DNA from: Stomorhina lunata
Lineage: Eukaryota; Arthropoda; Insecta; Diptera; Rhiniidae
NCBI GenBank assembly: GCA_933228675.1
Contig: OW121740.1
Location: 161,644,806-161,708,805 of the forward strand
Length of the DNA stretch: 64,000 nucleotides
Reading direction: 5' to 3'
This document shows positions 23,012 through 51,374 of the stretch, one piece after another (the stretch's first letter is position 1; each line of letters begins with the position of its first letter). Made by a program: the position numbers and the translations under genes. Under the pieces are notes generated by a model. The model was given only the letters and a program-made list of their open reading frames with translations. It did no database searches and was not told the DNA's origin.

Positions 23012-23122
23012 ACATATTGTGGTCTGTGGTCATATAACCTATGAATCAGTGTCACATTTTCTCAAGGATTTCTTGCATGAAGATCGTGAGGATGTCGATG
23101 TTGAAGTGGTCTTTTTGCATCG
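23012..23122 (+). CDS. slo: slowpoke BK channel, RCK1 exon 1 of window
   Basis: Internal exon of the calcium-activated potassium channel slowpoke, a plasma-membrane channel whose cytoplasmic RCK domains form the Ca2+/Mg2+ gating ring. The acceptor is ccatacag at 23004-23011 and the donor is gtaagt at 23123. The exon is 111 nt: one base completing a codon, 36 codons, and two bases (CG) starting an Arg codon. It reads [14 protein letters not shown] then [21 protein letters not shown], the first beta-alpha-beta of RCK1. By alignment with mammalian Slo1 (known family numbering), D362, H365 and D367 of the RCK1 Ca2+ site and E374 of the Mg2+ site are conserved. No stops or frame breaks. The upstream exons, including the pore, are not in the window as far as I can see, so the preceding intron exceeds 23 kb. 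Confidence 0.97.
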
Positions 23123-23531: not shown

Positions 23532-26294
23532 TAGCTACTAGAAAGGAGCTACTAGAACAGAATTACTAGAGAAGAGCCACTAGCGCAGAGGTACTAGAAT
23601 AGAGCTACTATAACAGACCTACTAGAATAGGTTAATTTTAACAGAGCTACTAGAAAAGAGCTACTAGAGCAGAGCTACTAGAACAGAGCTTCTATAACAG
23701 AGCTGCTATAACAAAACTACTTTAATAGAGCGACTAGAACCTAACTACTATAACAGAGCTACTACAACAGAGATACTATAACAGAGCTACTAGAACAGAG
23801 CTACTAGAACAGAGCTACTATAATAGAGTAACTAGAACAGGGCTACTATAACAGATATACTAGAAAAGAGCTAATAAAACAGAGCTACTAGATCAAAGCT
23901 GCTATAACAGAGCTACTAAAACAGAGTTACTAGAAAAAAGCTACTATAACAGATCTACAAGAGCAGAGCTACTAGAACAGAGCTACTATAATAGAGCTAC
24001 TATAAAAGAGCTTCTAGAACAGAGCTACTATAACAGAGCTACTATAACAGAGCTACTATAACAGAGCTACTAGAACAAAGCTACTAGAAAAGAGCTACTA
24101 TAACAGAACTACTATAACAGAGCTACTATAACAGAGCTACTATAACAGAGCTACTAGAACAAAGCTACTAGAAAAGAGCTACTATAACAGAACTACTATA
24201 ACAGAGCTGCTATAATAGAGCTACTATAACAGAGCTACTAGAATAGAGCTACTAGAACAGAGGTACTAGAACAGAGCTACTAGAACAGAGCTACTAGAAC
24301 AGAGCTACTAGAACAGAGCTTCTAGAACAGAGCTACTAGAACAGAGCTACTGTAACAGAGCTGCTATAACAGAGCTACTATAACAGAGCTACTAAAATCG
24401 AGCTATTAGAACAGAGCTACTGCAAATGAGCTATTATAACAGAGCTACTAGAGCAGAGCTACTATAACTGAGCTACTAAAACAGAGTTACTATAACAGAG
24501 CTATTAGAACAAAGATACTAGAAAAGAGCTACTATAACAGATTTACAAGAGCAGAGCTACTAGAATAGAGCTACTATAACAGAGCTAATAGAACAGAGCT
24601 ACTATAACAGAGTTACTAGAGCAGAGCTACTATAACAAAGCTACTAGAACAGAGCTACTACAACAGAGTAACTTGAACAGAGCTACTATAACAGAGCTAC
24701 TAGAGCAGAGCTACTATCACAGAGCTACTAAAACAGAGTTACTAGAACAGAGCTACTAGAACAAAACTACTAGAACAGAGCTACTAGAACAGAGCTACTA
24801 CAACAGAGTAACTAGAACAAAGCTACTAGAGCAGAGCTTCTATAACAGAGCTACTAAAACATAGTTACTAGAACAGAGCTACTAGAACAGAGCTACTAGA
24901 AAAGAGCTACTATAACAGATTTGCAAGAGCAGAGCTACTAGAACAGAGCTACTAGAATAGAGCTACTATAACATAGCTAATAGAACAGAGCTACTATAAC
25001 AGAATTACTAGAGCGGAGCTACTAGAACAAAGCTACTAGAACAGAGCTACTATAACAGAGCTACTACAACAGAGTAACTAGAACAGAGCTTCTATAACAG
25101 AGCTACTAAAACAGAGCTACTATAATAGAGCTACTGTAACAGAGTAACTAGAACAGAGCTACTAGAATAAAGCTACTAGAACAGAGCTACTACAACAGAG
25201 TAACTAGAACAGAGCTACTATAACAAAACTACTAGAGCAGAGCTACTATAACAGAGCTACTAAAACAGAGTTACTAGAACAGAGCTTCTAGAACAGAGCT
25301 ACTAGAAAAGAGCTACTATAACAGATTTACAAGAGCAGAGCTACTAGAACAGACCTACTATAACAGAGCTAATAGAACAGAGCTACTATAACAGAGCTAC
25401 TACAGCAGAGTAACTGGAAGAGAGCTTCTAGAACAGAGCTACTAGAAAAGAGCTACTATAACAGATTTACAAGAGCAGAGCTACTAGAACAGACCTACTA
25501 TAACAGAGCTAATAGAACAGAGCTACTATAACAGAGCTACTACAACAGAGTAACTAGAACAGAGCTACTATAACAGAGCTACTATAATAGAGCTACTATA
25601 ACAGAGCTACAAGAGCAGAGCTACTAGAACAGATCTACTATAACAGAGCTAATAGAACAGAACTACTATAACAGAGTTACTAGAGCAGAGCTACTAGAAC
25701 AAAGCTACTAGAACAGAGCTACTATAACAGAGCTACTACAACAGAGTAACTAGAACAGAGCTACTATAACAGAGCTACTATAACAGAGCTACAAGAGCAG
25801 AGCTACTATCACAGAGCTACTAAAACATAGTTACTAGAACAGAGCTACTAAAACAGAGCAACTAGAACAGCAGAGTAACTGGAAGAGAGCTTCTATAACA
25901 GAGCTACTAAAACAGAGCTACTATAATAGAGCTACTGTAACAGAGTAACTAGAACAGAGCTACTAGAATAAAGCTACTAGAACAGAGCTACTAGAACAGA
26001 GCTACTACAACAGAGTAACTAGAACAGAGCTACTGTAACAAAACTACTAGAGCAGAGCTACTAGAATAGAGCTACTAGAACAGAGCTTTTAGAACAGAGC
26101 TACTAGAACAGAGCTACTAGATCAGAGCTACTATAACATAACTACTAAAACAGAGCTATTAGAACAGAGTTTTTAGAACAGAGCTACTAGAAATGAGCTA
26201 CTAGAACAGAGCTTCTAAAACAGAGCTACTATTATAGAGCTACTAAAAAATAGTTACTAGAACAGATCTACTAAAGCAATGCTACTTTTACTAG
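23532..26294. repeat. 14-bp minisatellite array (~2.76 kb, ~197 units) in slo intron
   Basis: Tandem units of agagctactagaac with variants tactataac, tactaaaac, tactacaac. The period is held almost without indels; one visible slip is near 25870. A 140-bp (10-unit) higher-order repeat is visible: the segment at 25301 recurs at 25441. Composition differs from every other array in the window: it is not A/T-run based and contains AGCT in most units. It lies on the sense strand of slo between the 23012 exon and alternative exon C1. Confidence 0.95.
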
Positions 26295-26679: not shown

Positions 26680-26785
26680 CAAGGAGCCAGATCTGGAACT
26701 AGAAGGATTATTAAAACGTCATTATACAACAGTGGCGTTTTTTCAGGGAACCATGATGAACGCCGTCGATTTGGAACGAGTCAAG
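26680..26785 (+). CDS. slo: slowpoke alternative exon C1 (RCK1, Ala at the Mg2+ position)
   Basis: Alternative version of the second RCK1 segment. Acceptor tatag ends at 26679; donor gtacac starts at 26786. It is 106 nt: one base finishing the Arg codon begun in the 23012 exon, then 35 codons reading [26 protein letters not shown] and NAVDLERVK. It is colinear with the exon at 31952 and has the same phases, so it can replace it exactly. Aligned to mammalian Slo1, H394 is kept, but the residue equivalent to the Mg2+ ligand E399 is alanine (TTVAFF against TTVEFF). The two versions of this segment are known as mutually exclusive exons at the slo 'C' site in Drosophila. The labels C1 and C2 here are mine, in genomic order. 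Next intron: a CA microsatellite follows at once. Confidence 0.95.
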
Positions 26786-26800
26786 GTACACACCTTTTAA

Positions 26801-26823
26801 ACACACACACACACACACACACA
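26801..26823. repeat. (AC)n microsatellite
   Basis: About 11 perfect ac dinucleotides, 15 bp downstream of the C1 donor site. Confidence 0.95.
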
Positions 26824-28075
26824 AATACAAAACAAAAGTACATAACAAACCTAAATTTTTTAAACAATTACGAAACGAATTTGACACTTAAAAACAAAAC
26901 GTTACAAAATTCGAAATTCGGGAAATCAGAATTTAAATTTTCAATTGAACATTAATATACAAAGATTTCTTTAAATCCTCAAAAAGTTTTGTATAAAAAA
27001 AACTCATTATAAATACAACAAAAGTCCAAAGCCTGTGCAACACTAGAATTTCAAATGAATCCTCGAACATACCTCAAGATACTCTATTTTAATCGAATGT
27101 TTTCATTTATCAAATATTCCGACAATCGCCTTCAATTGTAATGAATTATCATAAACTTTTAAAAAAATTTTAAATTCTTATGTTTTGTTTGGAACAAATT
27201 GCACTTGATATCCTGATACCCTGTTGAAATTTTTATATAATATTTAAAAATCCCTATAAAAAAAATTCACTGCAACTGATAACAAATTTTCGTTTCCTTA
27301 TTCTTTTTTTGAAAGTCTTAAGATCTTGGCTTTTTTCAGCAAAATTTGCATTATGGCTCCTAAGAGCAATAGGCTTCTTTTTTAAAAGTTTTCTTTTAGT
27401 TTTTTTTTAAGAATTGAATTTTATTAAAAATATTAAATTTTTTACTTGTAAAATCCTTTTTTGATAAAGTTATTTTTTTTATCTGCAGTTTTGCTTTGAT
27501 ACCTAGAATTTTATAATTATTACCAAATATTTAAAATTAGTTAATTTTCCCCTTTTTTTATTTAGTTTTAAATTTACTTCTTTTTTTGAAAATATGTGCT
27601 TTGGAAACTTTTCAATGCTTTAATGGCATGAATTTTATTAGTGAATTAACTTGAATTTTTCAACTTTTTTCTTAGATTTTTAGATTTTTTTTATAAACAC
27701 GTATTTATTACTCTATTTGAACTTATAGGACGTTTGATCTTTGATTTTATTTGAATATTTACTTTTATTATTATCTTATTTAAGTAGAAATTGTGAACAA
27801 ATATTTATATTTTATATCTAATAACAAAAATTTAAGTATTTTCTTATATGGTTTAAGTTTATATTTATGTAGCAAATAATTACTTAAAAATCTTGTGGTT
27901 TAACTAAAACTATTTATTATGTATTTTGAAGATTTTTTAGAGATTATGTCAATTTTAATTACGAAGGCAGGACAATAAGTTCGTATCTTTTTAAATTTCC
28001 CACCGTCATCTTGAAATGGCAACACTGTCGCTGTCAATAAGCATTTAGTTTTTATAGCCGTCTTGGAATTTCTAT
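26824..28075 (+). other. slo intron between C1 and C2, unique part
   Basis: A+T-rich with scattered poly(T). A 68-codon minus-strand frame at 28106-27900 is not supported as a gene. Nothing else recognised. Confidence 0.5.
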
Positions 28076-28250
28076 TAAAAATACAAATTACAACAGCATC
28101 CTCCAATGTCGGCGAGTTCTACAGCATTAACATGCCGTCGATGTAAAATAAATAAAATTGGCTGTAAAACAAAAAGCTTCAATAATGTGTCAAGCTAACA
28201 ACAGATGTGCCGTTCTAAAGTTAGACATATACAATTGTATAGGTAGTATT
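28076..28250 (+). mobile_element. tRNA-derived SINE, body fragment
   Basis: Matches the SINE body: caacagcatcctcc, aacatgccgtcgatgtaaaa, ggctgtaaaacaaaaagctt, taacaacagatg, agttagacat. No tRNA head precedes it. Confidence 0.75.
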
Positions 28251-28261
28251 TGCCTGATTCG

Positions 28262-28385
28262 AACGAAACGTGAATCCACTGGAATGCACTGGTAAACGGT
28301 GAGTGTGTTGGGTCGACTCGGCGGCAAAGAAGGCGGCTGTGGGTTTTTAACTACCGTTTTTCGGGACGCACAGGTACAAATTATA
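28262..28385. repeat. Flanking repeat X, left copy
   Basis: Landmarks cgtgaatccactgg, gtaaacggtga, cggcaaagaagg, accgtttttcgggacgcaca. Related, rearranged sequence stands at 31113-31235 on the other side of the tandem array, and a shorter piece at 40288-40390. Confidence 0.55.
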
Positions 28386-28465
28386 TTTTTCGGAAGGGAT
28401 AAAAATATGGAGAATCGTTTAAATTATCAAAGTATTACAAACCAGCGTTTTTCATAAAATATCAT

Positions 28466-28500
28466 ATTCTGCCTGGGTTCGAGCCACGGCAACATGTAAA
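28466..28500 (+). mobile_element. SINE head fragment (B-box) at the array edge
   Basis: tgcctgggttcgagccacgg (28469) resembles the B-box region of the SINE heads at 11188 and 17669. The following gcaacatgtaaaat runs straight into 29-bp-array sequence. Confidence 0.5.
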
Positions 28501-28533
28501 ATCTTTTTATAGAAAATTTTTGATGTAAAACTT

Positions 28534-29004
28534 TTCAAAAAGAAGAGTATTTGCATTTGATCCCAAACCTGTTACATTTATTTATTAATGTAACAGATCA
28601 ATTTATTGGTAAAAAGCCAAAAAATGTTTGCGGAGAAACCAAATTCCTCGACGCGTTTCGATGGTTGGTTAAGCCATCTCTTCAGGAGGATTATCCCCAA
28701 TTTAGACAGATCGAAAACCTCGCATTATTACTAAATTTACAAACATAACTATTAAGAATTATGCTCATAAACAAAATGTAAAAGCGTAGATTATCGACTG
28801 AACAAAAACAAACATTTTTCAGTTTTCATCTACCTTCACTTCCCATTTTCTCCTGAAGAGATGGCTTAACCAACCATCGAAACGCGTCGAGGAATTTGGT
28901 TTCTCAGCAAACATTTTTTGGCTTTTTATCAATAAATTGATCTGTTACATTAATAAATAAATGTAACAGGTTTGGGATCAAATGCAAATACTCTTCTTTT
29001 TGAA
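28534..29004. mobile_element. Foldback element/MITE with 155-bp nearly perfect inverted arms
   Basis: Arms 28534-28688 and 28850-29004 are reverse complements with two visible mismatches; the spacer is about 160 bp. Landmarks in both arms are gaagagtatttgcatttgat, cctcgacgcgtttcgatgg and ggttaagccatctcttcagg. It is inserted in the left margin of the 29-bp array: array units are seen on both sides. It encodes nothing. As part of the slo intron transcript it would form a long hairpin. Confidence 0.88.
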
Positions 29005-29029
29005 TAATATTTACATCCCGACTATTTTG

Positions 29030-31108
29030 TTATTTTTTGGTAAAATTTTTCTATAGAAAATTTTTGATGTAAAATTTTTCTATTGAAAATTTTTGATGTA
29101 AAATTTTTCTATAGAAAATTTGTGATACAAAATTTATCTATAGAAAACTATCGATGTAAAATTATTCTATAAAAAATTTTCGATGTAAAATTTTTCTATA
29201 GAAAATTTTGAATGTAATACTTTTCTATAGAAAATTTTCGATGTAAAATTTTTCTATAGAAAATTTTCGATGTAAAAGTTTTCTATGGAAAATTTTCGAT
29301 GTAAAATTTTTCTATAGAAAATATTCGATGTAAAATATTTCTATAGAAAATTTTCGAAATAAAATTTTTCTATAGAAAATTTTCGAAATAAAATTTTTCT
29401 ATAGAAAATTTTCGAAATAAAATTTTTCTATAGAAAATTTTCGATGTAAAATTTCTCTATAGAAAATTCTTCTGTAAAAAATTTTTCTACAGAAAATTTT
29501 TCTACAAAAAATTTTCGATGTAAAACAATTTTATTTAAAATTTTCCTATAGAAAATTTTCGAAATAAAATTTTTCTATAGAAAATTTTCGATGTAAAATT
29601 TTTCTATAGAAAATTTTCGATGTAAAATTTTTCTATAGAAAATTTTCGATGTAAAATTTTTCTATAGAAAATTTTGCAATAAAATTCTTTTATCGAAAAT
29701 TTTTAATATAAAATTTTTCTATAGAAAATTTTTAATATAAAATTTTTCTATAAAAGATTTTAGTAAACATTTTTCTATAGAAAGTTTTCAATATAAAATT
29801 TTTCTATAGCAAATTTTTTATATAAAATTTTTCTATAGAAAATCTTCAATATAATATTTTTCTATAGGAAATTTTTTATATAAAATTTTTCTATAGAAGA
29901 TTTTAATATAAATTTTTTAATCTAAATTTTTCTATAGAAATATAAAATTTTTCTATGGAAAATTTCCAATATAAAATTTTGCTATAGAAAATATTTTATA
30001 TAAAATTTTTTTATAGAAAATTTTCAATATAAAATTTTTCCATAGAAAATTTTTTATATAAAATTTTTCTATAGAAAATTTTTTATATAAAATTTTTCTA
30101 TAGAAAATTTTTTATATAAAATTTTTCTATCGAAAATTTTCATACAAAATTTTTCCATAGACATTTTTTTATATAAAATTTTTTTATAGAAAATTTTCAA
30201 TATAAAATTTTTCTATAGAAAATTTTCAATATAAAATTTTTCTTTATAAAATTTTCAACATAAAATTTTTCTATAGAAAATCTTTAATATAAAATTTTTC
30301 AATATAATATTTTTTCCATAGAAAATTTTTAATATAAAATTTTTATTGTAAAATTTTTATTGTAAATTTTTTCTATAGAGAATTTTCGATGAAAAACTTT
30401 TCTATAGAAAATTTTCAATATAAAATTTTTATGTAGAAAATTTTCAATACAAAATTTTTCTATAGAAAATTTCTAATATGTTTTTATACATGTTTCTATA
30501 AAAATTTTTCAATATAAAATTTTTCTATAGAAAATTTTTATTATAAAATTTTTCCTTAGAAAATTTTCAATATAAATTTTTTCTGTAAAAAATTATCGAT
30601 GCATAATTTTTTTAATAGAAAACTTTTGATGTAAAACTTTTTCAATACAAAATTTTAATATAAAATTTTTATATAGAAAATTTTCAATATAAAATTTTTC
30701 TATAGAAAATTTCCAATATAAAATGTTTCTATAAAAAATTTTCAATATAAAATTTTTCTATAGAAAATTTTTATTAAAAAATTTTTCCTTAGAAAATTTT
30801 CAATATAAATTTTTTCTGTAAAAAATTATCGATGCATAATTTTTTTAATAGAAAACTTTTGATGTAAAAATTTTTAATACAAAATTTTAATATAAAATAT
30901 TTCTATAGAAAATTTTCGATATAAAATATTTCTACAGAAAATTTTCGATGCAAAATTTATTTATAGAAAATTTTCAATATAAATTTTTTTTATTAGAAAA
31001 TTTTCAACATAAAATTTTTCTATAGAAAATATTTAATAGAAAATTTTTGTATAGAAAATTTTTAATATAAAATTTTTGCATAGAAAATTTTTAATATAAA
31101 TTTGTTTT
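29030..31108. repeat. A+T tandem array 3 (29-bp unit, ~2.1 kb) between exons C1 and C2
   Basis: About 70 units built on tctatagaaaatttt plus a variable segment (cgatgtaaaatttt, caatataaaatttt, ttatataaaatttt), regular to about 29460 and more variable later. The core aaaattttctatag / ctatagaaaatttt is self-complementary. A short internal duplication is seen near 30590 and 30830 (attatcgatgcataattt). The same unit forms the array at 34540. Confidence 0.93.
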
Positions 31109-31112
31109 TGTA

Positions 31113-31235
31113 AAGCAGTTTCGTTACCGTTTACCTGGATCAACCGCAATCCACCGGAAAATAGGCGCCAAAGAACGTTTTGTTAGCCTATAGTCATGGC
31201 GACCATTTTTCGGGATTCACGGGGTATAATCCACA
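31113..31235. repeat. Flanking repeat X, right copy
   Basis: gttaccgtttacctgg, caatccaccggaa, ggcgccaaagaacg, gcgaccatttttcggga. Related to 28262-28385, so the array at 29030 is bracketed by the same unusual, less A+T-rich sequence. Confidence 0.55.
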
Positions 31236-31951
31236 TTGACTACCATTAAAAAAACATTAAATGAGAGACAATCCCTTTAATGAGGGACAACTGCATTGGA
31301 CCAAGAATAAATTTATTATTTTTATAAAAACCAGGGTTTTATTCTAATAGAGTTGGACTTATTAACCTGCCCTCGTATATTAAAATCAACAGCAAACAAT
31401 TTTGAAATTGATTTAAATTTAAAATTATAACAAATTTTAAATCAATTTTAAAATTTAATTTCCTTTTTGTAAGAAATTAAGAAACAAAATTACTTATGTA
31501 TAAAATAATTTAAAATAAAATTATTAAACACAGACAAGTCTCGTAGGCCTCAAATTGTAAATACAATAAAATTAAGGTAAATTTATTTTGCATTAATTTT
31601 AAGCAAAGATTTTCTTTAAAAATTGCATTGAATCAATATTTATTTTGTAAATTTTTTTGTTTTAAAACCAAAACCTACTTTTCAAAACTTCAAAATTCTT
31701 GCGCCATCCACAACCTGATTTTGTAAAAATAACCAAAAAATAATATAATTCAAACCAAACTATCAATCAATCAACTCCCACTCAATATGGATTAAAAAAA
31801 ATATAAATCATTCAAATTTCACCACAAAAATCAAACCAAAATTGCAATTGTATACTCGTACTCAATTGATTTTGATATTTTGATGAACAAAAAAATACCA
31901 AAAAAAAAAAAACAAATTTAAAATAAAAATTCACACTTAAAATCCAAAAAG
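31236..31951 (+). other. slo intron before exon C2
   Basis: A+T-rich unique sequence. The acceptor at 31950-31951 follows an A-rich, pyrimidine-poor stretch (aaatccaaaaag), so the 3' splice site of C2 looks weak by composition. Confidence 0.55.
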
Positions 31952-32057
31952 AAAACCACCCGATTTGGAACTAGAAGGTTTATTTAAACGACATTTTACA
32001 ACAGTGGAATTTTTCCAAGGCACTATTATGAATCCCATCGATCTGCAAAGGGTTAAG
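31952..32057 (+). CDS. slo: slowpoke alternative exon C2 (RCK1, Glu at the Mg2+ position)
   Basis: The second version of the segment encoded at 26680. It is 106 nt: one base completing Arg, then 35 codons reading [26 protein letters not shown] and NPIDLQRVK. The donor is gtaata at 32058. It keeps both H394 and E399 of mammalian Slo1, so it retains the Mg2+ ligand that C1 lacks. The frame is open past the donor to 32186, but that extension is intron. Its product joins directly to VHEADACL of the 51222 exon, leaving a 19-kb intron. The acceptor is pyrimidine-poor. The call rests on exact phase and near-identity to known fly slo sequence. Confidence 0.96.
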
Positions 32058-32917
32058 GTAATAGTCATTATTTATGTTGTTCTCACTTTCTCTTACTATA
32101 CTTCTTCCTATCTATTCTACAACTTAATACATTTAACTATCAAACGAACTATTATTATTCTTTTGTGTTTTGTTATTGAACATTAATTTGTACTACCTCT
32201 TTTTTTTTGTCTATAATTAAACATGTGTAATTCTAACTCATTTAAACAAAGAAATGTTATATATTTAATTGTTTTCACCAATCAAAAAAAAAAAAAAAAT
32301 TAAAAAATTAAAAAATTATAAGAATTAAAAATTGTTAATTGTATCTAAATATGAAAAGGCTCAAAATTTGTTCTAATTTGTGTTGTCTAAATGTTTCAAA
32401 TCTAAATAATTTATACGTATTTAAGTTATCTAAACACTACCATTTACTACTATTTTATGTACAAGCCAACACACACTCATTTTAACATTAGACACTTAAC
32501 ATTAATGCTATATATTTAACTCATATTTATTACATAGCTAATAACTGCTACTACTACTATTATTTTATAAACAACTACTACCCTTACTATAAAACTTATT
32601 TAATAATACTATTTACTATTATTATATTTAACTATGTTTATTTATCTGTTGTACTATATATAAATATATAGATTGTTTTTTTTTTGGAAAACTATTTTGT
32701 CGATTGCAGTCAATAGAAAAGTTCTTACAATTTTCTAAGTTTTCTTTTATATGCTATTATTAAGTATTACTACAATTCTCTGGAGAACTTTTAAAAATGT
32801 TTCCTTATTATTGATTTCTTTAACAACTATCAACTATTTATTACTACATACAATGCATACGATATATGTACTAGAGGTCTGCATCAAGTGATTCCAATTC
32901 ACAGTATAGCATACAAA
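32058..32917 (+). other. slo intron, unique A+T-rich part
   Basis: No repeat element recognised. It ends where a dispersed repeat begins (acaagtaagagtgctatatt). Confidence 0.5.
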
Positions 32918-33043
32918 ACAAGTAAGAGTGCTATATTCGGCTTTGCCGAATCTTGGATACCCTTTACCAATGGTGTTCCAAAAGTAAAGTACAAAATCGT
33001 AAGAATATATTGATAATTATATAGTTTCTGATTACTGACTTAG

Positions 33044-33799
33044 CCCAGTAAGAAAAAAGGTTTATTCTCAAATTGAGGATGATTTGAAAATAAATCTTTT
33101 TCAAAGTTCAAACGTTTAATACTGATTTGAGAATAATAGCGTTCTCAACAAAAAGGGGACTTTATTTTCAATTGATGCCTTAATTCTCAAATTATTATCA
33201 AACCTCATTCTCAAAGGTTTTTCAAATGTGGATATCATCTACATGTGGAACATAAATAAAATGGCGTGCATTTTTGAGTTTGTTTATTTTGTTTTTGAAA
33301 ACGGTGAATCATATTTGAATTCTTTTGCTTAAAATATAATTTTTTATTGTTATTATGAATATTATTGAATTTTTAATCTTGACATTTTTTAAGCAAGGTT
33401 TTATGGTCAAATATGGATCAATTTTAAAAAATCCAAAAGAAATAACGAATTTCTTTGAAATGCAATGACATTCCATTAAAATATCTTAAAAATTAATTTT
33501 ATTTAACATTTATAACAATTATTTTTTTTAATGTTTGAAAAAAAATTATAATAAGGTTTGATATCAAATTTATATAACACCATTTTTCAAATTATTCTCA
33601 AATCGTCTTAGGGTTTGATAATGATTTGAGAATAACATTTATTCTCAATTTGAAAAACGTTTATTCTCAAATGAACCCTCATTTGAAAATGAATGTGAAT
33701 CTCAAACATCTGTTCAGGTTTGAAAAAAATTTAAAAAAACGTTTGATATCAAATGTAAAAGTCATCATATTTCAAACGTTTGACACTGTTCTTACTGGG
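33044..33799 (+). mobile_element. MITE with CCCAGTAAGAA termini, copy 1 (756 bp)
   Basis: Begins cccagtaagaa and ends ttcttactggg. The 4-bp flank ttag is present on both sides (33040-33043 and 33800-33803), a perfect target duplication. The interior is made of 'tttgagaataa' and 'tcaaacgttt' motifs. A CCC terminus with a TTAG/TTAA-like target suggests a piggyBac relationship, but that is inference. No transposase. An inverted copy lies at 39415. Confidence 0.8.
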
Positions 33800-34406
33800 T
33801 TAGTTGAGCTCCACACAAAAGCTTGATATCTATAATAATTTTCTTTTGTTCATACTCAATGTAATTCCTAGCAATACTTGGTTATACTAGTACTATATGC
33901 AAAGAGTCTTTAAAATTAAGAGTCGGAAAACGAAAAGCATTTCGGTGGCGTCATCATCTAGAATAGTTATGGACCCAAAGGTTCATCAATAATATTTGGG
34001 ATGTGTTGTTCTTTCGATCTATCCGATGGATGTGTGGAAAGTTGTGCTCTAGTTCTTTGTGCAACTATAATGTGATTTAATTTATCAGCATTAAAGTAAT
34101 TCCCGGTCGGGGTTATATGGGAGATTCCAATAAATGTGAACCTCGCCCATTTTTAATACAGAACTTTTCAAGAGATCTGAAATACTTTTGTGAAATGTTG
34201 TTCCTCTAGAAAGTTTATTTTAGGCGCTATCGCCCTAAATAACGATATTGTACAACGTCTTTATACTAAATGTCATCATTGTATCCATTATAATTTGTCA
34301 TTTATTAGCTACTAAGAGATGGCCTTAGGCGAAGTTATACGGGAGCAATTGTCAAACGTGAGCGGATTTCTCCCAATTGCAATTAAAAAACTTACATTTT
34401 CGTTGA

Positions 34407-34477
34407 TATGTGAGATACATACATACATATGTAGGTTTTGAACGGATATCCTGTACTTAGCTGCATTTTTGTACTTC
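34407..34477. repeat. Direct repeat flanking array 4, left copy
   Basis: tatgtgagatacatacatac ... gtacttc. Nearly identical to 36099-36173; the only visible difference is one extra tetranucleotide (atac) there. Confidence 0.92.
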
Positions 34478-34539
34478 TTAGGAAGATTACCTATAATTGG
34501 ATATATAATACATTCTCAAATGTTATCATAATATTCAAA

Positions 34540-36085
34540 TTTATCTATAGAAAATTTTCAATGTAAAACTTTTCTATAGAAAATTTTCGATGCAAAATTT
34601 TTCTATAGAAAATTTTCGATGCAAAATTTTTCTATAGAAAATTTTCGATGCAAAATTTTTCTATAGAAAATTTTCAATGTAAAATTTTTCTATAGAAAAT
34701 TTTCAATGTAAAATTTTTCTATAGAAAATTTTCAATGTAAAATTTTTCTATAGAAAATTTTCGATGCAAAATTTTTCTATAGAAAATTTTCGATGTAAAA
34801 TTTTTCTCTAGAAAATTTTTGAGGTAAAATTTATCTATAGAAAATTTTCGATGTAAAATTTTTCTATAGAAAATTTTCGATGTAAAATTTTTCTATAGAA
34901 AATTTTCGATGTAAAATTTTTCTATAGAAAATTTTCAATGTAAAATTTTTCTCTAGAAAATTTTTGATGTAAAATTTATCTATAGAAAATTTTCGATGTA
35001 AAATTTTTCTATAGAAAATTTTCGATGTAAAATTTTTTTAGAAAATTTTCAACGTAAAATTTTTCTCTAGAAAATTTTTGATGTAAAATTTATCTATAGA
35101 AAATTTTCGATGTAAAATTTTTCTATAGAAAATTTTCGATGTAAAATTTTTCTCTAGAAAATTTTTGATGTAAAATTTATCTATAGAAAATTGTCGATGT
35201 AAAATTTTTCTATAAAAAATTTTCGAGGTAAAACAATTTTATTTAAAATTTTCGACAAAAAATTTTTCTTTGAAAAATTTCTATGTAAAATTTTTCTATA
35301 GAAAATTTTCCAATAAAACTCTTCTATCAAAAATTTTTAACATAAAATTTTTCTATAGAAAATTTTTAATATAAAATTTTTTTATAGAAGATTCCAATAT
35401 AAAATTTTTAATATAAATGTTTCTATAGGAAATTTTCAATATAAAATTTTTCTTTAGAAAATTTTCAGTATAAATCTTTAATATAAAATTTTTCAATATA
35501 ATATTTTTCCATAGAAAATTTTTAATAACAAATTTTTCTACAGAAAATGTTTCTATATAAAATTTTCATTATAAAATTTTTCAATGTAATATTTTTTTTA
35601 ACAAATTTTTAATGTAAAATTTTTCTATAGAAAATTTTCTATATAAATTTTAACTATAGAAAAAATTTTTCTGTAGGAAATTTTCAATATAAAATTTTTC
35701 TATAGAAAATTTTCAATGTAAAATTTTTATACAGAACATTTTCAATATAAAATCTTTCCATAGAAAATTTTCTATATTAAATTTTTCTGTAAAAAATTTT
35801 TGATGTAAAATTTTTTTATAGAAAATTTTCGATGTAAAATTTTTCTATAGAAAATTTTCAATAAAAAATTTTTCGATAGAACATTTCATTATAAAATTTT
35901 TCTACAAAAAATTTTTAATATAAAAGTTTTTTGTAGAAAATTTTCAATGCAAAATTTTGTCTATAATTTAAAATGTTTCTATAGAAAATGTAAAATGTTT
36001 CTATAGAAATTTTTCAGTATAGAACTTTTAAATAGAAAATTTTCAATAGAAAATCTTTCTACAGAAAATTTTCAATATAAGATTT
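34540..36085. repeat. A+T tandem array 4 (29-bp unit, ~1.5 kb)
   Basis: Same 29-bp unit as array 3 (tctatagaaaatttt with cgatgtaaaatttt or cgatgcaaaatttt). About the first 650 bp is almost uniform, then it decays. Bracketed by a 71/75-bp direct repeat of unique sequence. Confidence 0.93.
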
Positions 36086-36098
36086 TATTAAAAATGTA

Positions 36099-36173
36099 TA
36101 TGTGAGATACATACATACATACATATGTAGGTTTTGAACGGATATCCTGTACTTAGCTGCATTTTTGTACTTC
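36099..36173. repeat. Direct repeat flanking array 4, right copy
   Basis: Second copy of the 34407-34477 sequence, including ttttgaacggatatcctgta and cttagctgcatttttgtac. Confidence 0.92.
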
Positions 36174-37208
36174 CTATTTTACACACAATTTTTTTTTACA
36201 CAAAATTTTAGGATATTTCATCATTGTCGATCAAAACACCTGAAATATCGCTTAAACACTAAATTATATCTACCACAAATTACCGACTGCATCAGAATTT
36301 AGGTTATCCCCTGCGAAGTACGCTATTAAATTTCATCAAAAAAAAAACACCTGAGATATCAACAAAACAGGAGCTCCAAAAACTTGACTACAACAGAAAA
36401 AAGGACAGGCAGGTAGACGGACGGACGTCTCGAAAACGATTCTCCTGCCGATTATGAGTCGATCGGTACAATTTGAATGGTATTCATAATCAGATTTGTG
36501 GAGTTTATATATCAGATTTTACGAAATCCTCCCACAAAGAACGCTGTCAAATTTCATCACAATCGGCCGATAAACACCTGAGATATCGCTGAAACAATAC
36601 TTACAAAATGGAAAAAAAATCTTAGACACGTACTTTGGGCAATTTGCTGTACATCACAAGTAGTGTTTTGGCGATATCTCAGTTGTTTATGGACCGATTT
36701 TGATAAAATTTTACAGAGTGCTTTGGAGAACTATTTCCTACAATCTGATATATATTATCACATGTACACCAGGACTATTTATTTTATCTTGTTATTTAAA
36801 AGTGTGTTTCAATAAAAAATTTTATTTTATTTTCGGTGTTTATAAACCGATTTTAATGAAATTTAATATAATTTATGTAGGTTCATCCTCCAGGGGCTTC
36901 AGAAACTTGATTTCAACAGACAGACAGACAGGGGTCTACGATCACTAATAAAAAAATTACAAACGGAATCAAAATCTTATAATACCCCTTCACAATTGAA
37001 ACTACTTTGAAATAACTCAAATACAGCTTCTAAGCCAAAACTTAAGAAAAATCAAAAAAAAAGTTCATAAAAATTAATAGATTTTAAGTCTAGTCATTAT
37101 ATAATATATATATGGTTTCAATGTTGTTTGCACTGTGTGCATCAAAACATGTAATCTGAATAAAAAACGTGTGTCAGGTTGCCCAACTCTTTCAAATTTA
37201 AATTCCTA

Positions 37209-37799
37209 AAGGTACGGTCAGACTCATTAAACATTTAAATCAAATATTTTGAGTAAAATTTGACAATATTATAAAAAATTTGTGGTCACACTTGCACATT
37301 TATTTGACGATTTTTATTTGATAAAATACAGAAAAAATACGTTCAAAGTATAAACAAAAAAACAAGTTATGGTCACACTGAAGAATAAATATTTTCCCGA
37401 AAAATATTTGATCAAATTTTTTCAAAACAAAATTGTGTATCTAGCAATTTGTTTCTCATATTTGATGTTGTTGTTTCTCAAATTTGATGTTGTTGTTTCT
37501 CAAATTTGATGTTGTTGTTTCTGTTTGAATAGTAAACAATACACATGCTCAGCTGTTATTTGCCCCTGGTTGATGTTACAAAAATTTTGTAAGATTAAAT
37601 TATTATTTGATCAAAATTTAATAAAATATTTGCTCTTGCGTGGTCACATTAGGAAAATTTTTATTTGCTGGCAAATGATTTTGTTTTCTTCAAATCAACA
37701 TGTTTCTTGTTTAAACCTCAAAAATATTTTGTGGTCAGACTACGAGGATCAAATATTTGATAATTTCGATTAAATGTTTAATCTATGTGACCGTACCTT
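37209..37799. mobile_element. MITE with AAGGTACGGTCA termini (~590 bp)
   Basis: Left end aaggtacggtcagactcatt then aaacattta; right end is the reverse complement (taaatgttta then ctatgtgaccgtacctt). The interior has three tandem copies of a ~22-bp motif, tttctcaaatttgatgttg, at 37456-37520. A 'gtggtcacac' motif recurs in both halves. No clear target duplication. Confidence 0.75.
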
Positions 37800-39414
37800 A
37801 AGAAGAACAAAAAGGTAACAACTCGAATTCAAAATAGGGAATTTCTTAATGCAGACCTTTAGTATGATCCGTGTAAACTGTTCTACACACTATGTCACTT
37901 TAACATTTCCAGCATTTAAGTACTCTGCAGTAAATTGCAAATATAATAAGAAATTTACTTACTTAAAGCTTTTTTCCTCAATTTTCCCTTTTAAACACTT
38001 GAAATGAAATTAATGTAACTACTTTGATAACTACTTTAAGTAAAAATGTTATAAATGACAGTGCCAAATCTTGTTGGCATAAGTGATATAGAAACTAACA
38101 TTATGTAATCGCTGTTTTTAATCGAAGTAACTGTATAATCAATTAAAAATTTGAAGGCCGATTTTTCTGCCACTTAATTCCTTTTGCATTTCAGGTAACG
38201 ATATATACTTATATCTAGGAACGGGGTTATAATGGATCTATAGCTAAATAGCTATATGTATGGGTCCAAAAAATGTAAAAGTGCTCATAGCAATATTTGT
38301 TCTATGGGTCATTCTAAGGAACTTTTCCAAAGAAATCATAGGTCTAAAACGATTTTTTTTTTTTTTTTGAAAAAATTCACCAACATTTTCAACGGCACTT
38401 TTTACATTTTTCAAAATATCAACTCCACAATCACTTTAATGAAAAAGCTTAAATGTTCTAAAATTCTACAGACTTCACGCAATTGGAGGAGTACACAACC
38501 TTTCCAATAAATCCTAACTTTAGATTTATATTTGGGATTAGATTATCTCCTTTGGCTTTCGAGATATTAGTAATGTTAAAAAATACATTAAAATGTAACA
38601 ATAAGAGATAAGGTAGTGCAGCGAGCATGTTTTTTAGTTTTGTTAAGAAGTTTTCAAAAATGTAGAAATTTTTCGGATCAGACCAAATTGGCGAAAGTTA
38701 TACGGACCCAAAGGTTATACATACCCGAGGTGGGCAGCTTTGGCCCAATGTAGAGCCCACTGTGCTACCGACAGATACGTTCTTAAGCATTGCTCTAAAA
38801 GCCTAACATCTCTTCTATTGACGTTGAAAAAAATTCGTCTAGTAGTTCCGAAATTGCTGAGTTAATACCACTGTGTACTATTAACATTATATCCATACAT
38901 TACTCTCCAATACTCCAATATTCAGCGTCAAAATGCTATGGGAGGCAAAGTTTTCAGAGCTAGTATTATTGGATCGGGTAAGACCAGGCGATTAACACCA
39001 AGTAAAAATCTGTTTTAAGTTTTTTTTACACTTTGCATCGTAAAACAAAAAAAATATTATTTTTTTACTTTTGATATTCTGTAGAAATGACATGGATAAA
39101 TATATCACAATGGAATTTTGTAGTTATGTAGACCAGTAAGATCTAAAAACAATATACTAAAGAAAATTACCAATTCCCAAATGAAAAAATTTCCCAATTC
39201 CCAACTCGGGAAAAAAAGGTTTCAAAAAATTAGTTTTTTTTTACAAAAATGGCAACACTGACTCTATTTGCAGCGCGTTTCAGAAAAAAACTTTTCTAAT
39301 CAATAACAGATATGTCAGAAAATATAAACATTATATTTTTTTCAAATCGGTGCTTTGTTTAAACAAACATCTTTTTCCCAAATTTTCATTTTCTGGAGAG
39401 GGCATGTGCTTTAA
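37800..39414. other. slo intron, non-coding stretch
   Basis: Mixed A+T-rich sequence with an 84-codon frame (38256-38510) that matches nothing I know. No splice-flanked slo exon found. Confidence 0.45.
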
Positions 39415-40287
39415 CCCAGTAAGAACAGTGTCAAACGTTTGAAATATGATGACTTACTTTTACATTTAATATCAAACGTTTTTTTCAAACATTTTTCAAA
39501 CCTGAACAGATGTTTGAGATTCACATTCATTTTCAAATGAGGGTTCATTTGAGAATCAACGTTTGAAAAATTATAGTTTCTCAAATGGAGAAAAAAGGTT
39601 ATTCTCAAATCATTATCAAACCCTAAGATGATTTGAGAATAATTTGAAAAATGGTGTTTTATAAATTTGATATCAAACCATATTTTAATATTTTTTCAAA
39701 CTTTAAAAAAATTTGTATGTTAAAAAAAATTAATGTTTAAGATATCTTAATGGAATTGCATTGCATTTCAAAGAAATTTGTTATTTCTTTCGGATTTTTT
39801 GAAACTGATCCATATTTGACCATAAAACCTTGCTTAAAAAAAGTCACCCGAAATTATGGAAATTCGCTAATTTTGTGATCGTCCTTCTACTAAAGCAAAT
39901 GTCTGTACTAAATTTCATCTAATTATTTGATTAAAGATTAAAAATTCAATAATATTCATATACATAAGTAAATATTTTTTTACCTAACAATAAAAAAATT
40001 ATATTTTAAGCAAAAGGATTCAAATATGATGCACCGTTTTCAAAAACAAAATAAACAAACTCAAAAATATCAAAAATACAACGCCATTTTATTTATGTTC
40101 CACATGTAGATGATATCCACATTTGAAAAACCTTTGAGAATGAGGTTTGATAATGATTCGAGAATAAAGGCATTTCTCAATTTGAGAACGCTATTATTCT
40201 CAAATCAGTATCAAACGTTTGACCTTTGAAAATAGATTTATTTTCAAATCATCCTCAATTTGAGAATAAACCTTTTTTCTTACTGGG
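39415..40287 (-). mobile_element. MITE with CCCAGTAAGAA termini, copy 2 (873 bp, inverted)
   Basis: Begins cccagtaagaacagtgtc and ends ccttttttcttactggg: the reverse orientation of 33044-33799, closely similar throughout plus extra internal sequence. Left flank is ttaa; the right flank (aagt) does not match, so the duplication is lost or the end slightly altered. Confidence 0.78.
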
Positions 40288-40390
40288 AAGTTGCGAAGTC
40301 GGGTTAAATCTGCTCCAAAAAGGCAATGGTGGGTTTGTAAGCCAATAGAGCCAAGGCGACCATTTTTTTTTGGGATGCACAGGGAAAACA
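40288..40390. repeat. Fragment related to flanking repeat X
   Basis: agccaaggcgaccatttttt then gggatgcacaggg resembles 31185-31230 and 28350-28375. Confidence 0.45.
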
Positions 40391-40906
40391 ATCAACTGTA
40401 TTTCTTGCTTTCGTTGAAAAAGGCACGATACATAGCTCTAGTTATCACAAGGATATTTTAAGAACAATAATCTGGTACAAAATATGTAGTTTAATTAAAA
40501 CAATTACATTCACACAATTTTCTGTTATATTATATTCCTTTTACTGTAATGCAATATTTTTTTTTAATAATTGCAAACAACAAACATTTACTTATTAGGG
40601 CTAGGTTTGAATGTAAATGTAAAAAAAATTTAGCAAAATAGATTCTTTTAAAGTGTTAAATATTTATATATTTATGTATTGATTAATGTATTTATGTATG
40701 TATGTTCGTTATTATATGTATTTTAAAAAACAAAAATGACTTTGATTTTAGGGAATCAAATAAAAATCATCACTCTATTCCGCAATATTGAAAGAAAATC
40801 AAAATATTTTTTCGTCAAAATTTCATGCATTTGTTTTGATATTGTGGAACAGGTGAAATTATTATTAAACTCGACTTTTTTATATCATATTAAGGTATAA
40901 ATGCAG
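40391..40906. other. slo intron, A+T-rich
   Basis: No feature recognised. Confidence 0.4.
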
Positions 40907-41138
40907 TTGGGACGAACGAAAAATTTCGTCTAACACGACGAATTCGACTTTCAAAATTTGTTATGTATATTCGTCAATAGGACGTTGTTGGCGCTATTTT
41001 CATTGATTTTTGATTTGCATTAATTAATTGCACGACGAATTTCGCCGAACTCAACTATTAAGAGCATTTTCATATAAAACCATATGTTATATTTCTAATA
41101 ACGAATTTTCGTTGCGAAAAATAAGTCGTTCGTCCCAA
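40907..41138. mobile_element. Small MITE with TTGGGACGAACG termini (232 bp)
   Basis: ttgggacgaacgaaaaattt at the left is mirrored by cgttcgtcccaa at the right. Internal gacgaattcgac and acgacgaatttcgcc extend the imperfect palindrome. Confidence 0.75.
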
Positions 41139-41519
41139 TAAACCTATAAACCTCAAAAGTAGAAAATAAGAACATTTAAGTTTAAAATTTTAACTTATTG
41201 TGTAATGTCAAGCTTAAATACTCGTATATTGTATAAAAAATGCAAAATTAGTAATCTTTATATGTAATGCATGAATCTTTAAAAATACTAGATTTAAAGG
41301 GTATCCTTTTTTGCATTCAAAAGGAATTATAGAAAAGTTATAGGAAAGGGGGATTGAGTTATGGCATTCGAGAGATTTGACTCCAACATCGAAATGATCT
41401 CACAAAAGGATGTCTATTTTGATGAACTCATGAAATCATATTGGAAGAGATAAAAAAATGAAAAAATGTTGGTCTAAGTGTATAGATATAAAACGAGATT
41501 CTGTGGAGAAGTAAATAGT
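41139..41519. other. slo intron, A+T-rich
   Basis: No feature recognised up to the presumed start of the retrotransposon. Confidence 0.4.
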
Positions 41520-44500
41520 GTAGTAGTGTTTTGACGTCCGTCCTGTCTACACGCGTTTTTACATGTTGCTTGTCCGTCCATGTGTATTTTGTCCGCGTCC
41601 AGTGTTTAAAACAAAATTAATATATAATTAATAAATTAAACGCGTGCAATAAAATAAATAAATAAAAAAAAAAAAACATATTAACATTAAAACCAAAATA
41701 ACAAAAAATTGAAATAATTAAAAATCAAACAATAAACTCAAACAGTGGAAATAACACAAAATTAATAACATCCAACAATAAACAAACTCTCCAAACCAGT
41801 TTTTCTCTTATTTTATTTTTAATACAACAAACACAATAACTCTATTACAACAACAAACAAATCTACAGAACATCACTCATCATTACAAACATTAATATCA
41901 TTACATCAACAACCTAACTTCAACAAAAATATATCAGTGTTGGCACCTAGCCATAACAATGACCAGATCAGGGCTTTTATGGCCCTTTTAGCAATTGTCA
42001 TTGTGTTTTCTTTCCTTTTCCTTTTTATAGTAAAAGTATCACTGATTTAATTGTTGTCAAACTATTTAATGGTGAAGGCATAACACTGACCATTAATTAG
42101 TATCGCAGACAACAATTAACATCTTTGAGACTTTTACTATAAATAGACAATTGATTAGTTTTTTTCAATATATTGCAATGGCAGATCGTTTTAGCATAAA
42201 CTTCTGCAACATACGTGGGCTAAGAGCGAATTTCTTCTCTGTTTATGCACACATTTGTCTCCATCGGCCGGATGTTTTCGCCTTATCTGAAACCCAGGTA
42301 TCTGAAAATGCTGATCCACAGGATTTTCACATACCTGGGTATCAATTCCTATCCCTTTTTAACCTTCATAGGGGCATTGCAATGTACATTCGCGATGAAG
42401 TTGCGTACCAGTGCCAGCAATCATTAGGCACGCATGATAACGAATTTAGCTGTCTCTGGGTTAAATTCAGAATCAGGGCGCATCTTTTGTACATCGGGTT
42501 TCTTTATAGAAGTCCAAACGCGGAAAGGGGCACAACTTTATCTGGCTTCGATGCCCTTTCCGATTCAATTTCGAAGATCCTCGAGAGTTGTCCGAGCAGT
42601 GAAATCGTTATTGCTGGTGATTTCAATGTTCACAACTCGTCCTGGCTTCGCCATTCGAGCCACACAACTCCTGAAGGCCAATATGTTGAGTTATTTGCAG
42701 CGCACAATCACCTTGCGCAACTGGTGAATGAGCCAACACATATTCCATGTGTTGATGGGCACCAACAAAACATCCTTGACCTTTTCCTTACTTCACACCC
42801 TGATAAGTATGAAGTAAAGGTTCTTGCACCTCTCGGAAATTCCGATCATTGTACCATTTCCGCCTCTTTTTCGCTCTCCTCACTTCGCAGCATTTCGCAA
42901 ACAGCTACGAAACGTTCAATTTTTCTATACGAAAAAGGTCGTTGGGCAGAGCTCAACGAATTCTATAGGCATTTTAACTGGAAACTGTGTTTCCTCGACA
43001 GTAATGTCAATGCCTCGGCGGAAATGGTTTCTAATGTTATTAAGCTGGGAATGAAAATGTTTATCCCAGTGAAAAACATTTCGATTAAACCAAAGGTAAA
43101 AACTTGGTTTAATCAGACGTGCAAACAAGCAGTCAGATCCCGAGAGGAAGCTTTCAGAAACTGGCGCAATAACCAAAATCCAGTTACTGATTTGCAACGC
43201 AAACGTGCAAGGCGTACATGTGCCAAAGTATTAAGACGTGAAAAAGCTCTGTACGAGCAGCGTCTTCGTACTAAAATTCTTGCTGCTCCTCGGGGCAGCA
43301 AGAGTTTCTGGTCATTCGTTAAAAGAGTTAAGAATAATGCTAGTTCTTCAATTTCTTCTCTTTTAAAGAATGGTCAAACATTCACTGACCCGGTTGACAA
43401 AGCTAACCTTTTAGCTGAATTATTTGCAAGCAATTCCCGCTTGCCGGAAAGCACTCAACCTCCGCCCGAGCTCGAAAGAGTATCTGTAACTATGCCAAAG
43501 ATATTCTTTCGCGCCCGTGCTGTAAAAAGGGTTTTAGCAGATCTCAACATAAACAAGTCTTCAGGGCCGGATGGCATTCCAGCACTGGTCTTGAAGCAGT
43601 GCTGTTCGACGCTTTCGCGTCCATTAGCCAACCTTTTCAGCACCTTGTACCAAGCTGGTACATTTCCTCGGTGTTGGAAGGTTGCTAATGTAACGCCAAT
43701 CCCTAAAAAGGGTGAGGCTACCAACCCTGAAAATTACCGCCCAATAGCAATTTGTTCTGCACTCTCCAAAGTTTTGGAGAGTATGGTAAACCACCATCTT
43801 GTGAAATATCTGGAATCTAACAACCTACTAAGCGACCGCCAGTATGGATTTCGTAGGGGACGCTCTACGGGAGACCTGCTAGCCTTCCTTTCGGAAAAAT
43901 GGTGTCATTCAATACACCGTTTTGGCGAAAGTAAAGTTGTGGCTCTGGATATTTCCAAGGCGTTTGATAGAGTGTGGCACGGAGCACTTCTATCAAAACT
44001 TATTGCTTTTGGTGTCGGTAATATCTTCTCTCGATTTATATCGAGCTTCCTCAGAGATCGCACTATAAGAGTTGTTGTAGATGGGATCTCATCAAACGAG
44101 TTCAAGCTAAATTCAGGGGTACCGCAAGGCTCCGTTCTTTCTCCTACTCTATTTCTTATCTTTATAAACGACCTTCTACGTCAAACTTCCAATCCTATCT
44201 ACTCTTTTGCAGATGATAGTAACATTTGCCATTCGTATTCATTCAATCATAGACCAAACCCTTTAGAGATTGGTACTATGAGGCAAAACATGAATGAATC
44301 ATTAAACCGCGATTTAGAAGCAATCTCAGAATGGGGTCGTGCGAATAGAGTCGATTTTAATGCGCGGAAAACTCAATGTTGTATGCTAACGCATAAACGC
44401 ACGGCGGATCATGTTACTTCATCTGTATTAATGGGTGGTGAAAATATCGAGGAATCAGATACTCTTGATGTTCTGGGCATGAGAATTCAATGTGATGTCC

Positions 44501-45131
44501 GGTGGACTGAACACATTTTTCAAGTGTCGAAAGAAGCATTCAAGTGTCTCGGTTTTCTAAAACGGTGCAAGACATACTTCACTTCATCTGATCTCCTTAC
44601 TATTTATACCACCTATATCCGACCGAAAATGGAATACAACTCTCATGTATGGGCCGGTGCTTCAAAGTCTATTTTGGAGCTTCTTGACCGAGTACAGGAG
44701 AGGGCGAAGGTGCTTATTGGTGACAGTAGGGTATCCAACTCTATTGATTCACTGGAGCACCGTCGCAATGTGGGTTGTGTCACACTGTTCTATCGTTACT
44801 ACTTTGGAATGTGCTCTAATGAAATCAGGGAACTCGTTCCCGAAACTAGAATTTTTTTACGCAATACACGTCTATCTGTTAGAGCTCATCCCTTCGTAGT
44901 CGATTGGCCAGTAGACAGAACAACACACTACAGAGAAAATTCATTCTTTAGCCGTACAGTTCGTATGTGGAATTTACTTCCCGCAGAAATTTTTCCTGCC
45001 AGTTGCAATATAGGAAAGTTCAAATCAAATGTCCATAAACACTACTCCATCTATCCACCCTCCCATAACCTATTTTCCTAGTTCCAACACAATGCATTGC
45101 ATAAGTAGGGGTCATCCCCTGAGTGCTGGTC

Positions 45132-45162
<31 letters not shown>
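41520..45162 (+). mobile_element. Non-LTR retrotransposon with single intact EN/RT ORF and poly(A) tail
   Basis: A probable 5' region starts near 41520 (less A+T-rich gtccgtcctgtctacacgcg), followed by an A-rich leader, the ORF at 42178-45081, a short 3' UTR and a ~28-base poly(A) ending at 45162. No ORF1 (gag) is present, so the 5' boundary is uncertain: either a one-ORF family or a copy missing ORF1. The tail runs directly into a family A repeat (gtaagaaagtgct). I could not find a matching target duplication at the 5' side. Orientation is the same as slo. Confidence 0.8.
42178..45081 (+). CDS. Endonuclease/reverse transcriptase of a jockey/CR1-type non-LTR retrotransposon
   Basis: The frame is open from 42151 (976 codons), but the Met at 42178 (MADRF) is the likelier start because the endonuclease begins just after it. 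Counting from 42151, the APE-type endonuclease covers about residues 15-240, with N20 (NFCNIRG), E47 (LSETQ), GDFNVH at 156-161 and SDH at 231-233. The reverse transcriptase covers about 440-760: SSGPDGIPALVLK, PIPKKG, NYRPIAICSALSK, QYGFRRGRSTGDLL, VVALDISKAFDRVWH, NSGVPQGSVLSPTLFLIFIN, and catalytic YSFADDSN near 685. The C-terminal region has RPKMEYNSHVW and RRNVGCVTLFYRYYFG. No stops or frameshifts over 2.9 kb, so it is recent and may be active as an enzyme. It nicks target DNA and copies its RNA there. The exact clade (jockey, CR1 or relative) is not resolved. Confidence 0.93.
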   Translation: MADRFSINFCNIRGLRANFFSVYAHICLHRPDVFALSETQVSENADPQDFHIPGYQFLSLFNLHRGIAMYIRDEVAYQCQQSLGTHDNEFSCLWVKFRIRAHLLYIGFLYRSPNAERGTTLSGFDALSDSISKILESCPSSEIVIAGDFNVHNSSWLRHSSHTTPEGQYVELFAAHNHLAQLVNEPTHIPCVDGHQQNILDLFLTSHPDKYEVKVLAPLGNSDHCTISASFSLSSLRSISQTATKRSIFLYEKGRWAELNEFYRHFNWKLCFLDSNVNASAEMVSNVIKLGMKMFIPVKNISIKPKVKTWFNQTCKQAVRSREEAFRNWRNNQNPVTDLQRKRARRTCAKVLRREKALYEQRLRTKILAAPRGSKSFWSFVKRVKNNASSSISSLLKNGQTFTDPVDKANLLAELFASNSRLPESTQPPPELERVSVTMPKIFFRARAVKRVLADLNINKSSGPDGIPALVLKQCCSTLSRPLANLFSTLYQAGTFPRCWKVANVTPIPKKGEATNPENYRPIAICSALSKVLESMVNHHLVKYLESNNLLSDRQYGFRRGRSTGDLLAFLSEKWCHSIHRFGESKVVALDISKAFDRVWHGALLSKLIAFGVGNIFSRFISSFLRDRTIRVVVDGISSNEFKLNSGVPQGSVLSPTLFLIFINDLLRQTSNPIYSFADDSNICHSYSFNHRPNPLEIGTMRQNMNESLNRDLEAISEWGRANRVDFNARKTQCCMLTHKRTADHVTSSVLMGGENIEESDTLDVLGMRIQCDVRWTEHIFQVSKEAFKCLGFLKRCKTYFTSSDLLTIYTTYIRPKMEYNSHVWAGASKSILELLDRVQERAKVLIGDSRVSNSIDSLEHRRNVGCVTLFYRYYFGMCSNEIRELVPETRIFLRNTRLSVRAHPFVVDWPVDRTTHYRENSFFSRTVRMWNLLPAEIFPASCNIGKFKSNVHKHYSIYPPSHNLFS

Positions 45163-45166
<4 letters not shown>

Positions 45167-45812: not shown

Positions 45813-45904
45813 GAAATAAATAACAACGTTTTACTTAGATGCAAGTACCAGATACGTGTCTTACACTTCTTCAATGTAAATCGACCCGTCTGTAAATTAT
45901 ACTT

Positions 45905-51221: not shown

Positions 51222-51374
51222 GTTCATGAAGCTGATGCCTGTTTAGTGCTTGCCAATAAATATTGTCAGGATCCAGATGCTGAAGATGCTGCCAATATTA
51301 TGCGTGTCATTTCAATTAAGAATTACAGTGATGATATCAGAGTTATTATTCAATTAATGCAATATCATAATAAG
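51222..51374 (+). CDS. slo: slowpoke RCK1 exon (VHEADACL...)
   Basis: A 153-nt exon, exactly 51 codons, phase 0 at both ends. Acceptor cttaag; donor gtaata at 51375. It reads [36 protein letters not shown] and [15 protein letters not shown], the central Rossmann part of RCK1, near-identical to other animals' BK channels. It follows either C exon in frame (both end ...RVK). No lesions. An upstream in-frame ATG at 51198 is intronic and is not a start. Confidence 0.97.

Follow-up and report, generated by a model that had tools for sequence, protein, structure and literature searches.

Alternative slo exons of the fly Stomorhina lunata encode Ala or Glu at the position aligned with the Slo1 Mg2+ ligand E399

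The Mg2+ ligands of mouse Slo1, a BK channel, are D99, N172, E374, and E399 (PMC4319557, PMC12733198). The E399C exchange abolishes Mg2+ sensitivity (PMC4319557), E399N removes the Mg2+ effect on gating currents (PMC12733198), and N172A leaves Mg2+ sensing weakened, still present (PMC12733198). In the cryo-electron microscopy structure of Drosophila Slo (isoform J with 13 point changes, purified in 10 mM CaCl2 and 10 mM MgCl2), the classical Mg2+ site is not present, probably because Ser187 in the S2–S3 linker replaces human Asn237, which corresponds to mouse N172 (PMC8660915). Papers are cited here by PMC number, and what is attributed to them refers to the portions of their text that were available. 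We analyzed a 64,000-nucleotide stretch of the Stomorhina lunata genome (contig OW121740.1, positions 161,644,806 to 161,708,805), hereafter the window, which contains part of slo, including a pair of alternative exons already known in Drosophila. Aligned with Slo1, the two exons differ at E399 itself, and among the relatives listed the departure from Glu is confined to one exon of the pair.

A pair of interchangeable exons in slo

The gene in the window is slo, encoding the BK channel Slo1, and its exons, in the expected order and reading frame, code for the RCK1 domain of Slo1. A tblastn search with a Lucilia Slo protein gave six collinear stretches, all on the plus strand, five of them matching at 94.9–100%; an alternative exon absent from the Lucilia query matched at 78.4%. 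RCK1 starts in a shared upstream exon at 23012–23122, which is preceded by CATACAG, ends in phase 2 (after CG), and is followed by the donor GTAAGT. It contains the equivalents of D362, H365, D367, and E374, confirming the claim of an earlier note on this DNA that E374 is contributed by the shared exon. Two alternative exons follow on the plus strand, the first at 26680–26785 (acceptor ...CCTATAG, donor GTACAC) and the second at 31952–32057 (acceptor ...CCAAAAAG, donor GTAATA). The next shared exon lies at 51222–51374, begins in phase 0, and has AAG before it and GTAATA after it. The alternative exons had been named C1 and C2; since "exon C1" denotes a neuronal promoter exon of slo in PMC3781064, these names are ambiguous, and we refer to the first and second exon.

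Both exons are 106 nucleotides long with AG/GT flanks, start in phase 2, end in phase 0, and share 75.5% DNA identity. Splicing in either one alone gave an open frame, and splicing in neither or both gave a stop; the reading frame therefore demands exactly one, which the earlier note had not pointed out. These are homologous alternative slo exons, with the ends and the interchangeability proposed earlier. A degenerate pattern for the exon core matched twice in the window, once in each exon, and had no match in 100 dinucleotide-preserving shuffles. A steric cause of the exclusivity was set aside, as 5166 bases separate the exons and the choice is already enforced by the frame. Among the database matches listed, the 105 fly proteins P0016–P0120, which are database models retrieved with the first exon as query, contain the first exon once each and the second not at all; 16 other predicted proteins contain both, with the first exon before the second in every case.

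Comparison of the exons codon by codon revealed amino acid differences at 8 of the 35 positions and synonymous differences only at 14 more. The second exon is identical at 35/35 positions to residues 395–429 of Drosophila Slo isoform J (7pxe), so the solved fly structure carries the Glu exon, and the first is identical at 35/35 to D. melanogaster UniProt isoform 5 and to other non-mosquito flies among the matches listed. Positions 3–35 of the second exon align with human Slo1 residues 383–415 without gaps and over equal lengths, so that position 19 corresponds to residue 399. This position is Ala in the first exon (GCG, 26735–26737, plus strand) and Glu in the second (GAA, 32007–32009, plus strand). 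Alignment with both Slo1 and Drosophila Slo thus keeps the Ala/Glu difference on E399, where it had been placed. Exon position 15, the F395 equivalent, is Phe in the second exon and Tyr in the first. The remaining differences are P/E, F/L (F391L), M/I, A/P, V/I (which with A/P turns PID into AVD), and Q/E. The chance that one such pair differs at a given named position is 8/35, or 23%; a single exon pair consequently proves little, and the weight of the argument rests on the comparison of species.

History of position 19

The 16 predicted proteins with both exons come from a thrips, a wasp, beetles, butterflies, a moth, stick insects, mayflies, Daphnia, an ostracod, the decapod Petrolisthes, and a mosquito. 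Judged from these sequences, the exon pair is old, being shared by insects, Daphnia, a decapod, and an ostracod. In a tree of 13 exon sequences, the six first exons group together (91/98; no branch of this tree reaches both 95 and 80).

Relatives were read from the best 120 of 7948 matches to the Ala exon and the best 120 of 572 matches to the Glu exon. Near-perfect matches prevail in these lists, and the choice of query favors matching rows, so that Glu in a fly other than a mosquito, or further changes in some species, could have escaped notice. Among the matches listed, position 19 of the first exon is Ala under 47 fly names, including Culicoides, and Glu under 70 names, including nine mosquitoes. 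It is Lys, a reversal of charge, in the mayfly Cloeon dipterum (P0007) and in Daphnia magna (P0009). Three decapod proteins from Cherax and Petrolisthes (P0237, P0238, and P0239), unmatched by the pattern and read by eye, have Glu. Position 19 of the second exon is Glu in 16/16 arthropod species where that exon was read, few of them flies: within Diptera it was read in the window, in 7pxe, and partly in Anopheles stephensi only. A Globodera exon that fitted the second-exon pattern was not counted. Departure from Glu is thus found only in the first exon among the sequences listed.

Apart from position 19, the first exons of flies and other insects among these matches are the same whether they carry Ala or Glu. 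A further sample, free of any cutoff by rank of identity, comprised all 23 hits of one search (30 candidates) and rows P0001–P0015 of the Ala-exon search, together 33 proteins. Across the 24 insect species of this sample, 34/35 first-exon positions are identical and position 19 is the sole variable one, with 20 Glu, 3 Ala, and 1 Lys. The only flies in the fully listed 23-hit search are Lucilia, Glossina, and D. simulans, and all of rows P0001–P0015 except P0008 owe their high rank to holding both exons. Four Timema species were counted separately, one Operophtera exon, truncated and fused, was excluded, and Daphnia, the ostracod, and the decapods stand outside the 24.

Culicoides and Aedes both belong to Culicomorpha (NCBI taxonomy), and the presence of Ala in the former and Glu in the latter implies either two losses of the acid or one loss and one regain. 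These sequences suggest that the exon pair is old and that loss of the acid at position 19 came late, in two or more lineages. The earlier note had missed that first exons outside flies usually have Glu, which makes Ala the later change. Under a uniform model with independent origins, Ala and Lys would both arise at one and the same of 35 positions with a probability of about 1 in 35, and one further event at that position within Diptera would bring this to about 1 in 1200; because the assumption of uniform rates does not hold, these figures serve only as a guide.

Coupling of voltage sensor and gating ring

We favor, with a probability of roughly 0.6, the reading that the first exon retunes the coupling between voltage sensor and gating ring at E399 and F395, and that any residual Mg2+ response goes with it. 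Both exons encode alternative versions of the RCK1 stretch facing the voltage sensor. Choice of the first takes away the acid at E399 and turns F395 into Tyr, affecting two residues of the interface between voltage sensor and gating ring. Exon choice may in this way change the strength of their coupling, and hence the voltage and calcium dependence of channel opening. In flies, Mg2+ is probably not the principal ligand, since its partner residue on the voltage sensor is Ser, and a weak Mg2+ response of the Glu form, if there is one, would also be lost with the first exon. The replacements at E399 and F395 follow from the alignment; the change in coupling is what we infer from channels of other animals.

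Several observations on those channels concern the interface itself. F395 and E399 lie on, or within 6 Å of, computed allosteric paths from calcium binding to the pore (PMC9646747). In Aplysia BK, 4.3 Å separates N161 from E388 (human N172 and E399) when Mg2+ is bound to the wild type; for two gating-charge mutants in the apo state, the values are 4.3 and 4.7 Å (PMC12218146). Introducing charge at N172 and E399 affects how voltage and Ca2+ activate the channel (PMC4319557), and replacing Q397 of mouse Slo1 by Lys or Arg mimics bound Mg2+ (PMC12733198). The interface thus matters without Mg2+, and two of its residues, F395 and E399, are replaced in the first exon; for this reason an effect on coupling is preferred.

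Some points weigh against it. Any of the other exon differences (P/E, F/L, M/I, A/P, V/I, and Q/E) could carry the effect. Non-fly insects among the matches listed mostly have Glu in the first exon, and the second, in the species that allowed a reading, has Glu too, so the pair was preserved for reasons other than position 19. The interface role of E399 and F395 is presumed by analogy with mammals and Aplysia. The fly structure represents one construct with 13 point changes, and other density near its RCK1 calcium site was modeled as Mg2+ (PMC8660915), so that Mg2+ could act elsewhere.

A broader version, less likely than not, treats the first exon of arthropods as a repeatedly reset dial at E399, with Glu Mg2+-capable or negative, Ala neutral (flies), and Lys positive (mayfly and Daphnia). 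Lys would supply a built-in positive charge and could stand in for bound Mg2+ in the manner of Q397K/R in mouse Slo1. The partner exon has Glu in every species in which it was read, and splicing would set the coupling of voltage sensor and gating ring in each cell.

The earlier note had proposed that splicing makes channels with or without the low-affinity Mg2+ site, so that millimolar intracellular Mg2+ would activate Glu-exon channels and not Ala-exon channels. The residue and the exon choice in this proposal are right, and the effects of E399C and E399N in mouse Slo1 (PMC4319557, PMC12733198) speak for it. So do the E374 and D99 positions as read in relatives; the exons for D99 and N172 lie outside the window. 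Among the relatives listed, the E374 position is Glu in 121/123 species names (2 unreadable). The D99 position is Asp in 95, with 28 not readable as that stretch; this count came from a search that did not presuppose Asp, and a match in one name (RNQEDSYAGLHLS), judged not to be the D99 stretch, was left out of it. The N172 position is Ser in 114/123 names, including the nematode Globodera, with 9 unreadable and no other residue found; Aplysia has Asn there. Taken together, Glu at 399 in the second exon only, Glu at 374 in the shared exon, and, in the readable relatives, Asp at 99 and Ser in place of Asn at 172 leave three of the four ligands with the second exon and two with the first.

A channel "with or without" the site is, however, unsupported as proposed: with 10 mM Mg2+ present, fly Slo carrying the Glu exon did not show the classical site, which is ascribed to Ser187 (PMC8660915), and Ser occupies the N172 position in every readable relative. 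For these reasons we rank a full switch low, and a clean on/off response to Mg2+ between the exons is unlikely. A weak residual switch is possible, because N172A weakens Mg2+ sensing in mouse Slo1 without abolishing it and Ser still offers an oxygen. The available part of PMC5068790, which reports recordings of fly Slo, yielded nothing on Mg2+ and fly Slo.

Less probable again is that F391L, P/E, PID/AVD, and Q/E set stability, assembly, or calcium response, with Ala as a passenger. These differences do appear to be older than Ala, since, among the matches listed, insect first exons that carry Glu differ from those with Ala at no other position; a freely drifting passenger would hardly account for changes at position 19 in flies and a mayfly while the other 34 positions stay fixed across the 24 insects. 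It is very unlikely that the first exon is a seldom-used copy in which a single tolerant position drifts, as the different residues found there (Ala and Lys) might suggest, because a decaying copy would also change elsewhere than at one of 35 positions from mayfly to fly (24 species), and the exon is present in all 105 fly database models retrieved with it as query. Among these explanations, retuned coupling of voltage sensor and gating ring is the one we retain.

The surrounding locus and described counterparts

Beyond the exons described above, slo continues on the plus strand with an exon at 59147–59302 (tblastn 100%; AG before, GTAAGT after) and one at 62750–62862 in the form SPDMQSWTNDYLRGTGMEMYTETLSPTFIGIPFAQAT (TAG before, GTAAGT after). 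The stretch from 62741 matches a Lucilia isoform at 97.6% and D. melanogaster isoform 5 at 70.7% (tblastn). Upstream of the first alternative exon, a 14-bp tandem repeat (AGCTACTAGAACAG) occupies 26000–26273, with 19.6 copies in the stretch scanned. The intron between the alternative exons contains a fold-back element at 28527–29011, an inverted repeat with arms of 162 nucleotides that are 97% complementary and spaced by 161 nucleotides, and 71 copies of a 29-bp AT-rich tandem repeat (TAAAATTTTTCTATAGAAAATTTTCAATA) at 29041–31100. The intron from 32057 to 51222 holds a long open frame (42175–45078, plus strand) encoding an endonuclease domain and a reverse transcriptase domain; it is probably a non-long-terminal-repeat retrotransposon. 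In the intron after the 51222 exon, copies of a direct repeat (52369–54100) lie 917 bases apart, are 98% identical over 300 nucleotides, and adjoin arrays of a 25-bp unit. Two overlapping frames on the minus strand at 2596–3704, the upper with a DUF4817 helix-turn-helix domain and the lower without a Pfam match, may be an old DNA transposon.

No account of the E399 difference between the fly slo exons was found in the literature searched, which omits most subscription journals as well as Adelman 1992 and Lagrutta 1994; neither the swap at a ligand position nor its late and recurrent appearance in one exon was found there. Functional differences among slo variants were reported by Lagrutta 1994, according to PMC9741552. 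In fly clock neurons, a mutually exclusive pair called "exon 2a/2b" is described in the "second alternatively spliced" region of slo, and the choice between its members cycles in DN1 neurons (eLife 2018, PMC6025963); this pair may or may not be the one in the window.

The comparison suggests that flies have abandoned, in one splice form, a residue that serves mammals as a Mg2+ ligand; two other lineages have changed it to Lys, and the other splice form retains it. Fly splicing thereby offers a natural test of a role for the E399 side chain in tuning BK gating without Mg2+, and Drosophila genetics makes both points, gating without Mg2+ and loss of the ligand, directly testable.

Other slo genes also contain exon pairs. 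The orthologue slo-1 of C. elegans has a tandem pair as well; PMC9741552 calls the worm and fly exons unrelated, PMC4270693 places the alternative exons of nematodes, arthropods, and vertebrates "at the same position", and the available text of neither states which fly pair is meant. Exon 9/e9alt of mammalian Slo1 is likewise mutually exclusive and changes the calcium response, but it provides alternatives of the S6 segment, at another place in the protein (PMC11758846), and homology to the pair in the window was rejected on this ground. The mammalian Slo1 Mg2+ site shares with the relatives listed the equivalents of D99, E374, and, in the second exon, E399, and differs at N172, in keeping with the fly structure in which the site was not seen (PMC8660915). 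The closest system is the RCK1 exon pair of Drosophila slowpoke, with Ala in isoform 5 and Glu in isoform J (7pxe): it is the same gene with the same two exons, and both 35-residue peptides are identical to those encoded in the window.

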